Both the position numbers and the translations under genes were made by a program. From an uncultured Oscillospiraceae bacterium (GTDB taxonomy: Bacteria; Bacillota; Clostridia; Oscillospirales; Oscillospiraceae), in assembly GCA_944387635.1 (NCBI GenBank), contig CALXFT010000014.1, positions 1-43,522 of the forward strand: a stretch of 43,522 bases of DNA, read 5' to 3'. This document shows positions 8,133-31,550 of the stretch, piece by piece. The notes under the pieces are model-generated. The model ran no database searches. It saw nothing but the letters and a program-made list of their open reading frames with translations, and was not told where the DNA came from. The stretch's first letter is position 1. Every line of letters begins with the position of its first letter.

Positions 8133-8161
8133 TTGACAAATGTCCTTCGCTGAGATACAAT
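8133..8161 (+). promoter_or_regulatory. Promoter of the liv operon
   Basis: TTGACA (8133-8138), 17-base spacer, TACAAT (8156-8161): close to consensus. The predicted start near 8168 leaves a leader of about 260 bases before the binding-protein gene. Confidence 0.8.
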
Positions 8162-8193
8162 ACTTCCAGATTCTGACGGGGAGGTACATGATT

Positions 8194-8343
8194 ATGACAA
8201 GCGCCTTTGCTTCTTTTGGTCATAATTTCCACTGCTCCCGGGCAGCGGCATGTCCCTCCGCGCCAATGATTCCGGATTTGGACACTGCCGCACGGCTGGT
8301 AGTGTCCATTTGTTCTGTGTTCCTGTGCGAAAAGGGTACATAG
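8194..8343 (+). CDS. Possible 49-residue leader peptide
   Basis: An ATG at 8194 has GGGGAGG (8178-8184) 9 bases upstream, a better site than many real genes here, and opens a frame of 49 codons inside the liv leader. The peptide is not notably rich in Leu, Ile or Val and has no recognised domain. It overlaps both leader hairpins, so ribosome position could affect folding. It may equally be chance, since the hairpins could be purely RNA elements. Confidence 0.3.
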   Translation: MTSAFASFGHNFHCSRAAACPSAPMIPDLDTAARLVVSICSVFLCEKGT

Positions 8344-8370
8344 GCGTGACCGGAATTCTGTATGTATGAA

Positions 8371-8400
8371 GAAGCGGTTGCGAAATGTTGCCGCTTTTTT
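8371..8400 (+). terminator. Intrinsic terminator inside the liv leader
   Basis: Stem AAGCGG (8372-8377) / CCGCTT (8391-8396) followed by six T. It sits between the promoter and the first liv gene, so it would block the operon unless read-through or antitermination occurs. Confidence 0.6.
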
Positions 8401-8427
8401 ATAGTTTTTGAAAAAGGAGAGTTTATT

Positions 8428-9678
8428 ATGAAAAAGTTTGTCGCATTGTTATTGGCTGCCTTGATGGCCGTGTCCCTGTTTGCGGGCTGCGGCGCCTCCG
8501 GAGATGAGGGAACCACACCCCAGACCGAAGCCACCGGCAGCGCCTCCGGAGATGAGGGGACCACTCCTCAGAGCGAATCCACTGACAGCGCCAACGCCGG
8601 CAGCGAAGCCCCCGCGCTGAAAATCGGTATGACCGGCCCTCTGACCGGCTCCACTTCCGAATATGGTCTGGCCGTTCGCGGCGGTATGGAGATCGCTGTG
8701 GAAGAGATCAACGCCATGGGCGGTCTGCAGATCGAATTCCGGGCTGAAGACGACGAGGCCGACGGCTCCGATAAGGCTGTTTCCGCCTACAACACCCTGA
8801 AGGACTGGGGCATGCAGATCTTCGCCGGCGCGGTTACCACCGGTTCCTCTCTTGCCATTGCCGCCGAAACCGTCAACGACCAGATCTTCATGCTGACCCC
8901 CTCCGCTTCCGCCGCGGATGTTGCTATGACCGGTCCGAACATCTATCAGATGTGCTTCACTGACCCCAACCAGGGCGCTTCCGCTGCCGAGCTGATGGCT
9001 CAGGAATGGCCTGAGGCTGTGATCGGCGTCATCTATGACTCCTCCGACGCTTACTCCTCCGGTATTGCCGACGGCTTCCTGTCCAAGGCGGAAGAGCTGG
9101 GCCTGAATGTGGCTGTGGACGACGCGGCCTTTACCGCTGATAACAAGGCGGACCTGTCTACCCAGGTTACCCAGTGCAAGGATGCCGGCTGCGACATGGT
9201 CTTCCTGCCCTTCTACTACACCGAGGCTGCCCAGGTCCTTACTTATGCCGACACCATCGGCTACCAGCCCACCTTCTTCGGCTGCGACGGCATGGACGGC
9301 ATCCTGAATGTGGAAGGCTTTGACACCTCCCTGGCTGAGGGCCTGGTGTTGATGACCCCCTTCGACGCCAATGCCACCGACGAGGCCACGGTTTCTTTCG
9401 TGACCAAGTTCAAGGAAAACAACGACGGCAAGATCCCCAACCAGTTTGCCGCTGACGGCTATGACGTCATCTACGCTCTGTACGACGCCTGCGTTGCCGC
9501 TGGTATCGACGGGAACACCCCCGCTGAGGAAGCTTGCCAGCTGCTGCAGGAGCAGTTCGCCACCCTCACCATTGACGGTTTGACCGGCAAGGGCATGACC
9601 TGGGATGAAAACGGTATGATCGCCAAGGATCCCGCGGCCGTGGTGGTTACCGACGGTGTTTACGTCCCTCTGGGCTGA
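8428..9678 (+). CDS. livK: LIV-type ABC transporter substrate-binding lipoprotein
   Basis: A 416-residue binding protein of the branched-chain amino acid (LivJ/LivK, type I periplasmic fold) family. The signal peptide ends in the lipobox FAGC. Next comes a linker with an imperfect tandem duplication of ASGDEGTTPQ, then the ligand domain starting KIGMTGPLTGSTSEYG. The ATG at 8428 follows AAAAAGGAGAG; an earlier in-frame ATG is rejected because it precedes the leader terminator. First gene of livKHMGF. The family also carries urea, amides and aromatic acids, so substrate is by family only. Confidence 0.9.
   Translation: MKKFVALLLAALMAVSLFAGCGASGDEGTTPQTEATGSASGDEGTTPQSESTDSANAGSEAPALKIGMTGPLTGSTSEYGLAVRGGMEIAVEEINAMGGLQIEFRAEDDEADGSDKAVSAYNTLKDWGMQIFAGAVTTGSSLAIAAETVNDQIFMLTPSASAADVAMTGPNIYQMCFTDPNQGASAAELMAQEWPEAVIGVIYDSSDAYSSGIADGFLSKAEELGLNVAVDDAAFTADNKADLSTQVTQCKDAGCDMVFLPFYYTEAAQVLTYADTIGYQPTFFGCDGMDGILNVEGFDTSLAEGLVLMTPFDANATDEATVSFVTKFKENNDGKIPNQFAADGYDVIYALYDACVAAGIDGNTPAEEACQLLQEQFATLTIDGLTGKGMTWDENGMIAKDPAAVVVTDGVYVPLG
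8494..8580. repeat. Tandem duplication in the LivK linker
   Basis: The segment encoding ASGDEGTTPQ-T/S-E occurs twice in a row (about 45 bases each) with a few mostly silent differences, lengthening the linker between the lipidated Cys and the ligand domain. Confidence 0.7.
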
Positions 9679-9809: not shown

Positions 9810-10691
9810 ATGCAAGTTCTGCAATATCTCATTAACGGTATCAGTATCGGCGCTGTTTATGCCATCATTGCCCTGGGCTATACCATGGTGTACGGCATTG
9901 CCAAAATGCTCAACTTTGCCCACGGCGACGTGATTATGGTCGGTGCGTACATTTCGTTTTGCGTGACCAATTACCTGGGACTTCCTGCCATCGTATCCGT
10001 CATTGCCGCGATGGGCGTATGTACCATTCTTGGCATTATCATTGAAAAGCTGGCGTATAAGCCTCTGCGGGGAACTTCCTCACTGGCGGTTCTGATCACA
10101 GCCATCGGCGTCAGCTACTTCCTGCAGAATGCCGCCCAGCTCATCTGGTCCAGCAGCCCCAAAAACTTCACCAGCATCGTCACCATGGACCCCATTGCCC
10201 TGTTCGACGGAAGGCTGATTATCACCGGGGAAGTGCTGGTAACCGTGCTGATCTCCGCGCTGGTCATGGTCGGTCTGACATTGTTCACCGGTAAGACCAA
10301 AACCGGCAAGGCTATGCGGGCGGTTTCGGAAGATCGGGACGCCGCCCAGCTCATGGGTATCAATGTCAACCAGACCATCTCCACCACCTTTGCCATTGGC
10401 TCCGCGCTGGCCGCGATTGCCGGTGTGCTGCTGTGCTCCACGGTTCCCACCCTTATGCCCACCACCGGCTCCATGCCTGGCATCCGGGCCTTTACTGCCG
10501 CTGTCCTGGGCGGTATCGGCTCGATTCCCGGGGCTATGCTGGGCGGTATCTTGCTTGGCATCATCGAAACGCTGTCGAAGGCGTATCTGTCCACCCAGTT
10601 CTCGGATGCCATTGTGTTCTCGGTGCTGATCATTATCCTGCTGGTCAAGCCCGCCGGTCTGCTCGGCAAGCAGGTCCAGGAGAAGGTGTGA
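9810..10691 (+). CDS. livH: LIV-type ABC permease LivH
   Basis: A 293-residue multi-pass permease. It shows the LivH signature: N-terminal NGISIGAVYAIIALGYTMVYG, then MLNFAHGD, AMRAVSEDRDAAQLMGIN and a Gly-rich AVLGGIGSIPGAMLGG loop. It forms the membrane channel with LivM. ATG with GAGAGG upstream. It is separated from livK by 131 bases holding a strong hairpin. Confidence 0.93.
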   Translation: MQVLQYLINGISIGAVYAIIALGYTMVYGIAKMLNFAHGDVIMVGAYISFCVTNYLGLPAIVSVIAAMGVCTILGIIIEKLAYKPLRGTSSLAVLITAIGVSYFLQNAAQLIWSSSPKNFTSIVTMDPIALFDGRLIITGEVLVTVLISALVMVGLTLFTGKTKTGKAMRAVSEDRDAAQLMGINVNQTISTTFAIGSALAAIAGVLLCSTVPTLMPTTGSMPGIRAFTAAVLGGIGSIPGAMLGGILLGIIETLSKAYLSTQFSDAIVFSVLIIILLVKPAGLLGKQVQEKV

Positions 10692-10700
10692 GGTGTCGTT

Positions 10701-11774
10701 ATGAAACAATTGCTGAAAAATAAAAACAGCCGCACCAATATGATTACATATTTGGTCGTCATTGTGGCTTACCTGATTATGCAGACCCTGAACTCCATGG
10801 ACATGCTGGGCAGCTCCGTGCGCGGCTATCTGGTGCCTCTGTGTGTCTATATTTCCCTGGCGGTGTCATTGAACCTGCTGGTGGGCATCTGCGGAGAACT
10901 GAGCCTTGGCCATGCCGGATTTATGGGCATCGGCGCCTTCTCCGGCATTGTGATCGCTTCTTTGCTCAAGGGCACCGTGCAGAGCGATACCCTTCGGCTG
11001 ATCGCCGCGATGATCGCCGGCGGCGCGATGGCAGGCGTTATGGGCTTTCTGATCGGAATCCCGGTTCTTCGGCTTCGGGGCGACTATCTGGCCATCGTCA
11101 CCTTGGCCTTTGGCGAGATTATGAAGAACATCGTCGGCAACACCTATGTAGGTGTGGATGATACGGGCTTCCATTTCGCCATTTCCCCCACGAAGATGCG
11201 GCTGGGGGAAGGGGGAAAGTATTTTATCAACGGACCTCTGGGCGCCACCGGCGTGGAGAAGCTTGCCAACTTCACCATGGGGTTCCTGCTGGTCATGGTG
11301 ACACTCTTTGTTGTGCTCAACCTGATCAACTCGAAGGAAGGCCGCGCGATCCGGGCCGTCCGGGATAACCGGATCGCGGCCGAATCCGTGGGCATCAATG
11401 TAACCGCGTTCCGGATGAAGGCCTTTGTGGTTTCCGCGTTCCTTGCCGGTATGGCCGGCGCTCTGTTCGGCCTGAACTATTCTGCCATCACCGCCACGAA
11501 ATTTAATTTCAACACCTCCATCAACATCCTCGTGTTTGTGGTGCTCGGCGGTATGGGCAATATTCTGGGCTCTGTAATTTCCGCGACAGTACTGTATATC
11601 CTGCCTGAGGCCATGCGCGGCCTGGAAGACTTCCGGATGATCCTGTATGCGGTGGTGCTGATCCTGGTTATGCTGTTTACCTGGTCTCCCAAATTCAAGG
11701 AAGCAACGGCGGTGTTCACAGGTAAGATCAAGGGCATTTTTAGGCCCGGAAAGGAGGCGGGGAACAATGAATGA
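10701..11774 (+). CDS. livM: LIV-type ABC permease LivM
   Basis: A 357-residue permease with the LivM pattern: N-terminal helices, ICGELSLGHAGFMGIGAF, PVLRLRGDYLAIVTLAFGEI, GRAIRAVRDNRIAAESVGIN, and the AxxAGMAGALFG and LGGMGNILGS segments. It pairs with LivH. It starts 9 bases after livH, and its stop overlaps the livG start by 8 bases, indicating translational coupling. Confidence 0.93.
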   Translation: MKQLLKNKNSRTNMITYLVVIVAYLIMQTLNSMDMLGSSVRGYLVPLCVYISLAVSLNLLVGICGELSLGHAGFMGIGAFSGIVIASLLKGTVQSDTLRLIAAMIAGGAMAGVMGFLIGIPVLRLRGDYLAIVTLAFGEIMKNIVGNTYVGVDDTGFHFAISPTKMRLGEGGKYFINGPLGATGVEKLANFTMGFLLVMVTLFVVLNLINSKEGRAIRAVRDNRIAAESVGINVTAFRMKAFVVSAFLAGMAGALFGLNYSAITATKFNFNTSINILVFVVLGGMGNILGSVISATVLYILPEAMRGLEDFRMILYAVVLILVMLFTWSPKFKEATAVFTGKIKGIFRPGKEAGNNE

Positions 11775-12618
11775 GTATTCCAAAAAAATGCTGAAGGTCC
11801 CCACCTACACACTTTTGCGCGAGCAGGACATGGATAAGCTGCCTGTCCTGGATGTGCGGAACCTGGGAATCGACTTTGGCGGTTTGACGGCTGTGGACAG
11901 CTTTAACATCACCATAGGCCCAACGGAAATCTCCGGACTGATCGGCCCCAACGGTGCGGGCAAAACCACCATTTTTAACCTGCTCACCTCGGTTTATCAG
12001 CCTACCCGCGGCAGCATCCTGATCAACGGCATTGACACCAAGGGTATGACCACCCACAAGGTGACAAAGCTGGGAATTGCCCGGACTTTCCAGAATATCC
12101 GCTTGTTTACGGATATGACGGCTCTGGACAATGTAAAGGTGGGGCTTCATAACGAGATTAAGTGTCCCTTTGTTTGCTCGCTGTTCCATGTGCCGCCCTA
12201 TCAGAAGGCGGAGAAACGGGCCACCGAGAAGGCCATGGAGCTTCTGGACTTTATGGGGCTTGCGGATATTGCGGATCAGAAGGCGGGAAGTCTGCCTTAC
12301 GGCGTCCAGAGACGTCTGGAGATTGTCCGCGCCCTGGCCACCAATCCCTCGATCGTTTTGCTGGATGAACCGGCTGCCGGTATGAACCCCAGCGAGACTA
12401 CGGAACTGATGCACCAGATCCGCCGAATCCGGGATACGTTCCATATCGCGATCTTCCTGATCGAGCATGATATGAATCTTGTGATGAACGTGTGCGAGGC
12501 CATTGCCGTGGTGAACTACGGACGTATCATTGCCAAGGGTACGCCGGATGAGATCCGGCAGGATCCGGCCGTTATCGAGGCATATCTGGGACGAGAGGAG
12601 GGAAAGGCCGAATGCTGA
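11767..12618 (+). CDS. livG: LIV-type ABC ATPase LivG
   Basis: A 283-residue ATP-binding subunit. Walker A is GPNGAGKTT, the signature is the LivG-type LPYGVQRRLEIVRALA, and Walker B is VLLDEPAAGMNP. The long insertion between Walker A and the signature (around FNLLTSVYQPTRG to the PPYQKAEKRA stretch) is normal for LivG. There is an N-terminal extension of about 25 residues before the ABC domain. It overlaps livM and livF. Confidence 0.93.
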   Translation: MNEYSKKMLKVPTYTLLREQDMDKLPVLDVRNLGIDFGGLTAVDSFNITIGPTEISGLIGPNGAGKTTIFNLLTSVYQPTRGSILINGIDTKGMTTHKVTKLGIARTFQNIRLFTDMTALDNVKVGLHNEIKCPFVCSLFHVPPYQKAEKRATEKAMELLDFMGLADIADQKAGSLPYGVQRRLEIVRALATNPSIVLLDEPAAGMNPSETTELMHQIRRIRDTFHIAIFLIEHDMNLVMNVCEAIAVVNYGRIIAKGTPDEIRQDPAVIEAYLGREEGKAEC

Positions 12619-13310
12619 AAATTGATGACATTCATGTCTATTACGGCGCGATCCATGCCATCAAGGGCGTTTCCTTCGAGGTCAACGACGGAGAGATTGT
12701 GGCCCTGATCGGAGCAAACGGCGCCGGAAAGAGCACCATTCTGAAGACCATTTCCGGCCTCATGCATCCCAGAAGCGGCTCTATCAATTTCTGCGGCCAG
12801 GACATCAGCCACACGGACGCGTATAAACTTCTGCGTACCGGCCTGGCCCATGTTCCGGAGGGGCGCCGGATCTTCCTGCAGATGACGGTGCAGGAGAATC
12901 TGGAAATGGGCGCCTACATCAATAAGGAAGTCTCCCAGGAAGACCTGGACCGGATCTTCACCTATTTCCCCCGGCTCAAGGAGCGGCGGAAACAGATCGC
13001 GGGTACCCTCTCCGGCGGCGAGCAGCAGATGCTTGCCATGTCCCGGGCGCTGATGAGCCACCCCAAACTGATGATGCTGGACGAACCTTCCATGGGCCTC
13101 GCGCCCATCCTGGTCGATCAGATCTTTGACATCATCCGGGAACTTCACAAGGCGGGTACTACCATTTTGCTGGTGGAACAGAACGCGCGCAAAGCCCTTC
13201 AGGTCGCGGACCGTGCCTATGTTCTGGAGACAGGCGTCATTACGCTGAACGGCACCGGTGAGGAGCTTGCCAATTCCGATGACGTTAAGAAAGCTTATCT
13301 GGGCGGGTAA
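12612..13310 (+). CDS. livF: LIV-type ABC ATPase LivF
   Basis: A 232-residue ATP-binding subunit. Walker A is GANGAGKST, the signature is LSGGEQQMLAMSRAL and Walker B is LMMLDEPSMGLAP, all typical of LivF. It overlaps the livG stop by 7 bases. Last gene of the operon; a terminator follows at 13403. Confidence 0.93.
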   Translation: MLKIDDIHVYYGAIHAIKGVSFEVNDGEIVALIGANGAGKSTILKTISGLMHPRSGSINFCGQDISHTDAYKLLRTGLAHVPEGRRIFLQMTVQENLEMGAYINKEVSQEDLDRIFTYFPRLKERRKQIAGTLSGGEQQMLAMSRALMSHPKLMMLDEPSMGLAPILVDQIFDIIRELHKAGTTILLVEQNARKALQVADRAYVLETGVITLNGTGEELANSDDVKKAYLGG

Positions 13311-31473: not shown

Positions 31474-31550
31474 CGGGGTGTGGCGAAGCTTGGTATCGCG
31501 CTTGGTTCGGGTCCAAGAGGCCTCGGGTTCGAATCCCGACACTCCGACCA
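31474..31550 (+). tRNA. tRNA-Pro (anticodon CGG)
   Basis: A 77-nt cloverleaf: acceptor CGGGGTG/CACTCCG (one G-T wobble), D stem GCGA/TCGC, anticodon stem CTTGG/CCAAG around TTCGGGT with anticodon CGG at 31508-31510, T stem TCGGG/CCCGA with loop TTCGAAT, and encoded CCA. It has its own promoter and terminator. Confidence 0.97.

Follow-up and report, generated by a model that had tools for sequence, protein, structure and literature searches.

The segment at 8168–8427 of the analysed window (the whole 43,522-nucleotide stretch of DNA from an uncultured Oscillospiraceae bacterium) is a real and conserved leader, and comparison with its relatives makes it very likely that this leader controls the livKHMGF importer by ribosome-mediated (leader-peptide) attenuation of transcription. 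The sequence comparison supports a translated ORF, a segment rich in codons for branched-chain amino acids (BCAA; Leu, Ile and Val), two helices sharing an arm, and a stop codon located at the antiterminator. An earlier note on the same DNA had read the region as an attenuator or riboswitch of a LIV-type importer, and had guessed that its ligand is connected with the amino acid transported. The attenuator part of this reading is supported, an aptamer riboswitch is probably not present, and the proposed ligand was right in spirit, as the Leu/Ile/Val supply is probably sensed, most likely by a translating ribosome and not by an aptamer.

All features of the window described here lie on the forward (+) strand. 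The leader precedes livK (8428–9678), which encodes a LIV-type substrate-binding protein (PF13458, E = 2.3e-36); among solved structures, binding proteins for branched-chain amino acids are the closest to it. The livH, livM, livG and livF genes follow at 9810–13310 and are named after their best NCBIfam matches (LivH, LivM, LivG and LivF), all of which fall below the curated cut-offs. The near-consensus promoter described in the earlier note was found at 8133–8161 as a sigma-70-type sequence, TTGACA-17-TACAAT, with 11 of 12 consensus matches, and it is also present in the aligned relatives. The 8168–8410 segment folds with −95.2 kcal/mol, compared with a mean of −72.57 (SD 4.87) for 200 shuffled sequences (z = −4.65), and together with its conservation among relatives this value bears out the claim of a structured leader upstream of livK. 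Both hairpins noticed earlier stand out against shuffles: the one at 8279–8308, called P1 here (stretch 8278–8309, −20.1 kcal/mol, not reached by any of 200 shuffles), and the intrinsic terminator at 8366–8402, just before the ribosome site of livK (−16.7 kcal/mol, 1 of 200 shuffles as good). In the terminator, the 5′ arm (8366–8378) pairs with the 3′ arm and U-tract (8390–8402), as indicated by the fold against shuffles and by the comparison of relatives in alignment A2. A simple terminator scan flagged 8279–8308 as terminator-like and not 8366–8402, and its two terminator-like sites, against a shuffle mean of 2.3, represent no excess.

The earlier note had recognised no T-box or known aptamer and had proposed an Rfam scan, which agreed with it: there was no match on the leader at gathering scores, the best hit in E-value mode was L20_leader (E = 3.3, 14.3 bits vs a gathering score of 58.7), and the T-box model (RF00230) gave no match at the leader. 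The sole Rfam match in the window at gathering scores was a tRNA gene at 31474–31547 (+). A ligand-binding riboswitch using the same terminator/antiterminator pair would fit the strong structure and the intrinsic terminator before a transporter gene, yet it is very unlikely, given the lack of an Rfam match, the position of the strongly structured P1 within a frame-conserved ORF, and the variation, within one genus, of much of the sequence outside P1, the Shine-Dalgarno (SD) box and the switch arms. By eye, no conserved non-coding core could be recognised in the leader alignments.

The relatives on which the attenuator reading is based were collected by several searches. The closest LivK in the named collection (97%) belongs to a MAG labelled 'uncultured Bacilli bacterium' and the second closest (83%) to Candidatus Faecousia intestinavium; the host genus is presumably Candidatus Faecousia. 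A DNA search detected the leader in 38 of 101 genomes of the genus (the window's own counted), including 12 of the 28 good-quality ones, and gave no leader match in the other 63 (16 of the 28 good-quality ones), where the importer may be absent or the leader may have diverged. After orienting the strands, a LivK homologue was found downstream in 29 of the 30 fetched DNA-matched loci; the single locus without a LivK match downstream (L026) ends near a contig edge. The model R1, run on 400 genomes of the family with strict filters, identified 22 places in addition to the window. Of these, 14 precede LivK; the remaining eight were discarded, most of them resembling unrelated terminators and one, L035, being a small-ORF case of its own. 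Peptide profile A4 gave 21 places besides the window, ten of them upstream of LivK, and the 11 places without LivK in the locus, all at E = 2e-4 or worse, were rejected. All of the best nine A4 places besides the window (E = 1.1e-4 or better) lie upstream of a LivK homologue; four of them are rows of the profile itself (G001, G263, G265 and G423), two were known earlier without being profile rows (G240 and G440), and three are new (G254, G259 and G355). The window is the first row of this profile, which finds it at E = 7.1e-17.

Among the best 80 LivK loci of the named collection, the hairpin pattern occurs in 15, a spurious match in L106 being excluded. In one of these (L130) the listed ORF stops before the hairpin and is poor in L/I/V, and a further locus beyond the 15 (L062) carries a degenerate hairpin. 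None of the ten records that carry the labels Gemmiger, Flavonifractor, Roseburia or Butyricicoccus had the pattern (Pseudoflavonifractor was left out of this group). The leader is single-copy in the genome of the window, the next matches having E = 0.036 (R1) and 0.09 (A4), and no such leader was found within the 420 bases inspected at the other Peripla_BP_6 gene. In a locus of another genus (L035:1501–1649, reverse strand), an SD-led short ORF followed by a terminator-like hairpin was observed before a PF04392 gene; with its several Phe codons and an ABC substrate-binding protein encoded downstream, it is possibly another leader-peptide attenuator.

Altogether 54 candidate leaders were available, from which L023 and L027, having no recognisable P1, and L030 were dropped before the statistics, as were L081, L089 and L133 (no recognised P1). 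This left 48 leaders, the window included: 26 from L001–L030, 14 from the R1 search and eight from the LivK loci of the named collection. Alignment A2 consists of 27 leaders, with L023 and L027 left out and L030 kept. L030 was removed from the statistics because the ORF-choosing script took another frame. By eye, the second ATG after its SD box gives an in-frame DTA..VVSV peptide, the stop of which is located ~13 bases before the antiterminator arm; the stop position of +1 recorded for L030 comes from a different frame and does not enter the count of 26 stop positions given below.

The earlier note had overlooked an SD-led ORF at 8188/8194–8343. Its SD box, GGGGAGG, lies at 8178–8184, and the GGAGG core is invariant in 29 of 29 aligned leaders. 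The ORF starts at ATG 8188 (51 codons) or, in the same frame, at ATG 8194 (49 codons), with which the start of most relatives aligns, and ends with TAG at 8341–8343. Judged from its comparative pattern, this ORF looks translated. In the 29-leader alignment, the gaps around the central hairpin are by eye mostly multiples of three. In 45 of the 46 testable leaders among the 48, the first start after the SD box is in frame with the Asp codon of P1 (L046 is out of frame, and L036 and L044 have no SD box by the rule used); this test is somewhat favoured by selection, since the ORF script preferred long, SD-led ORFs, and L030, which had already been removed, would not pass the rule if taken literally. 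Over 26 leaders, the second codon position is better conserved than the third in the four codons after P1 (0.73 vs 0.53), and in the nine codons preceding P1 the three positions differ only slightly (0.60, 0.59 and 0.54). Within P1 the third position is the most conserved one (0.87), thus the RNA is under selection there. The position of the stop codon is equally regular: in 17 of 26 in-frame leaders it begins at the second base of the antiterminator arm, and in the remaining nine it begins 4–11 bases upstream of the arm, so that all 26 placements (from 11 bases upstream to 1 inside) fit an arm-covering ribosome. Consequently, a ribosome finishing the ORF would cover the arm, letting the terminator form. 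An early hairpin of the CTGC..GCAG type at 8231–8248, in the part coding for the N-terminal half of the peptide, is seemingly kept with changed letters in some relatives.

The amino acid composition of the peptide changes at P1. In the 48 leaders, 469 of 989 codons after P1 (47.4%) encode Leu, Ile or Val, compared with 9.2% before P1 (stretch up to 25 codons), 17.2% in LivK, and 17.7% and 10.0% in the other two frames. Extreme L/I/V runs occur in other genera, for example in L038 and L048. The window itself, with 3 of 11 codons after P1 (I, V and L), is far below its distant relatives; its putative regulatory codons, V V S I C S V F L C E K G T, span 8299–8340, with V V S lying in the 3′ arm of P1. 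Judged by these codons, the leader peptide points to branched-chain amino acids. The choice among synonymous codons is also unusual: after P1, Ile is encoded by ATT in 121 of 147 cases (82%; 25% in LivK and 33% in nine window genes), Val by GTA in 59 of 121 (49%; 4% and 10%, respectively) and Arg by CGA in 33 of 72 (46%; 1% and 5%). The codons favoured in the leader peptides are the ones rare in LivK. ATT is common before P1 as well (41 of 49 Ile codons), thus the ATT part of this bias is not specific; CGA accounts for 20 of 99 Arg codons before P1. The pair CGA-ATT recurs before the P0 element described below and before the stop in several leaders, and as a slow codon pair it may help to place the ribosome.

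Two other explanations of the ORF were weighed against these data. According to the first, the product of the ORF is a small membrane protein with a function of its own, transcribed together with the importer, and the terminator is a constitutive partial one. The hydrophobic C-terminal half and the recurring LDTA..VVSI motif would suit such a protein, which, being hydrophobic, would also be L/I/V-rich. However, L/I/V make up 47% of the codons after P1 as against 22% for F, M, W, A, G and Y together, the N-terminal half is highly variable, the length of the ORF ranges from 39 to 101 codons, and the stop sits at the antiterminator arm; the recurring motif, moreover, coincides with P1, where conservation at the wobble positions equals or exceeds that at the other two. 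We consider this explanation very unlikely. The second retains a leader peptide that senses something other than branched-chain amino acids, either as an attenuator responding to, e.g., cysteine or as a nascent-chain arrest peptide sensing a small molecule. The conserved peptide around LDTA..VVSI and the frequency of Cys codons (9.1% before P1 and 4.3% after it vs 1.8% in LivK) speak for it, but Cys is denser before P1, where stalling would occur far from the antiterminator, after P1 it reaches 4% against 47% for L/I/V, and the controlled genes encode a LIV-type importer, which leaves this explanation improbable, too.

P1 (8279–8308), located inside the leader ORF, is a candidate pause hairpin or first terminator. 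Its pairs are formed in 98% of the A2 cells with mostly one-sided changes, and across genera 44 to 48 of the 48 leaders can pair at each of the nine outer positions. The eight bases after P1 contain on average 5.6 U residues in the 22 leaders outside L001–L030 and 4.0 in the 26 within this set. P1 probably acts as a pause hairpin coupling polymerase and ribosome. It is a possible, though rather doubtful, extension that the attenuator has two gates, with P1 as a first terminator or obligatory pause testing the translation of the leader and the BCAA-controlled pair of helices as the second gate; expression would then need both leader translation and BCAA shortage.

The covariation check on relatives proposed in the earlier note gave a mixed outcome: the terminator was supported, as was an antiterminator that the note had overlooked, and the alternative helix it had drawn was not. 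In this antiterminator, GTGACCG at 8346–8352 pairs with CGGTTGC at 8375–8381, which overlaps the 5′ arm of the terminator; 93.7% of the cells are paired, and the hairpin has −9.0 kcal/mol, a value equalled in 4 of 200 shuffles. On A2, the terminator and P1 together are paired in 95.6% of the cells and contain 15 double-change cells vs 2.7 in shuffles (reached in 0 of 500), with both-sided changes in five pairs of the terminator and in just one of the 11 pairs of P1. Columns 136–142 of A2 are common to the terminator and the antiterminator. At column 139, the upstream pairing is A-U in 15 rows, G-C in six and unpaired in six, and the downstream pairing is U-A in eight, U-G in eight, C-G in seven and unpaired in four. 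The controls of the antiterminator were uneven: the double-change cells and the covariation score were each reached by 1 of 500 shuffles and the percentage of paired cells by 7 of 500, the count of double-change pairs was a weak control (36 of 500), and the number of further pair types was contrary, being as high in 497 of 500. When arms were swapped between species, the native arms were better in 2000 of 2000 permutations for terminator and antiterminator alike, and the result for both helices held in the 20 rows below 75% identity. As the rows are related, none of these permutation or shuffle fractions is a probability. Based on these comparisons, the antiterminator and the terminator are supported as mutually exclusive structures sharing an arm.

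The segment at 8244–8250, for which the earlier note had proposed an alternative pairing, is complementary to 8389–8395 in the window, but comparison did not support this helix: in 27 leaders the native arms gave −10.04 and the mixed ones −10.38, and 1724 of 2000 permutations were at least as good. A candidate anti-antiterminator, P0, is formed by ATTCCGG at 8269–8275 and CCGGAAT at 8350–8356, the latter overlapping the antiterminator arm. In fixed columns P0 is weak (60% of cells paired vs 52.8% when slid by one), and in the arm-swap comparison mixed arms were as good in 1 of 2000 permutations, or 0 of 2000 in the 20 rows. The folding model did not confirm the idea of a clear dominance of P0 in the ribosome-free RNA: the antiterminator had the same mean probability, 0.60, whether no ribosome was present or one was stalled after P1. 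Its loss when the ribosome is placed at the stop is a direct consequence of masking these bases in the model. For the full-length RNA, the terminator was preferred to the same extent (0.89) in each of the three states, thus the antiterminator would have to act kinetically by forming first.

In the mechanism we propose, RNA polymerase would start near 8168 and produce a leader carrying a ribosome site and the ORF of ~50 codons. P1 would form behind the polymerase, probably pausing it until the ribosome catches up. Under a shortage of charged Leu-, Ile- or Val-tRNA, the ribosome would stall on the BCAA-rich codons at P1 and after it, leaving 8346–8352 free to pair with 8375–8381 before the far arm of the terminator is made, and livKHMGF would be transcribed. 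With plentiful amino acids, the ribosome would reach the stop at 8341–8343 and cover 8346–8352, whereby 8366–8378 could pair with 8390–8402 and transcription would end before livK. We infer the stalling, the amino-acid response of the leader and its direction, the pausing role of P1 and the termination-favouring role of P0 from this arrangement.

The genome seems to possess another amino-acid sensing mode as well. It contains 15 T-box matches at E = 0.001 or better, five of them over the cut-off and none on the contig of the window. One of the 15, L144 (C15:18040–18291; 80.6 bits and thus under its cut-off of 93), has an aminotransferase IV gene on one side and, downstream, a PALP/ACT-domain gene on the other; these two are probably ilvE and ilvA (threonine dehydratase), respectively. 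With T-boxes and the livK attenuator in one genome, two sensing modes thus seem to coexist, and the RNA sensor for BCAA synthesis may differ from that for import. The T-box (RF00230) likewise provides amino-acid responsive antitermination, but does so by direct tRNA binding, whereas the livK leader would sense by translation.

The trp, his, ilv and leu attenuators operate on the same principle as proposed for the livK leader. With the enterobacterial ilvGMEDA, leu and trp systems it shares the short ORF with cognate codons, the mutually exclusive antiterminator and terminator, and the stop near the antiterminator arm; it differs from them in its target, an importer in place of a biosynthetic operon, in its occurrence in an Oscillospiraceae genus, in the lack of an Rfam match, and in the conserved hairpin, in many cases with a U-tail, that precedes the regulatory codons within the ORF. 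The leader-peptide attenuator class is described in PMC1183508. For ilvD of Staphylococcus aureus, a leucine-rich attenuator peptide was proposed (PMC5794164), i.e., a BCAA-rich leader peptide in a Firmicute controlling BCAA genes by attenuation, as suggested here; in that case, however, the target is a biosynthetic operon, and the antiterminator is built differently, the terminator stem-loop reportedly staying intact with its U-tract sequestered. The Corynebacterium ilvB-II motif, found first as a conserved RNA motif and later assigned to a BCAA-enriched uORF attenuator (PMC10272879), is similar to the livK leader in being a BCAA-enriched leader-ORF attenuator, but it belongs to the biosynthetic ilvB in Actinobacteria. 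Leader peptides were also proposed for hisS/hisZ in bacilli (PMC2965389), and the same paper predicts 205 attenuators of ABC transporter genes ('ABC-leaders'), in line with attenuation being common before ABC transporter operons; a BCAA leader peptide before livK was not found in the part of its text considered. Riboswitch candidates are known as the ilvD motif in Veillonella (PMC8632094) and the livJ motif upstream of LIVBP genes, mostly in Streptomyces (PMC11109978). The latter, too, is a leader RNA that precedes a gene for a LIV-type binding protein, but its SD box lies in an internal bulge of its own P1 stem, which sets it apart from the livK leader by description. In the top-ranked papers of our literature search, with subscription journals mostly outside its scope, neither a description of this leader nor a livK leader-peptide attenuator in Oscillospiraceae was recognised. 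Thus, the type of attenuation is known from trp/ilv-type control, and what appears to be new is its place, an importer in Candidatus Faecousia and its relatives.

The livK leader would add a comparatively well-supported leader-peptide attenuator, acting on an importer, in gut Clostridia known mostly from metagenomes. Its peptide would be independent support for branched-chain amino acids as the cargo of the importer, and such leader peptides could be miscalled as small proteins. According to the attenuator reading, BCAA uptake in these bacteria should follow the supply of aminoacyl-tRNA in the cell itself.
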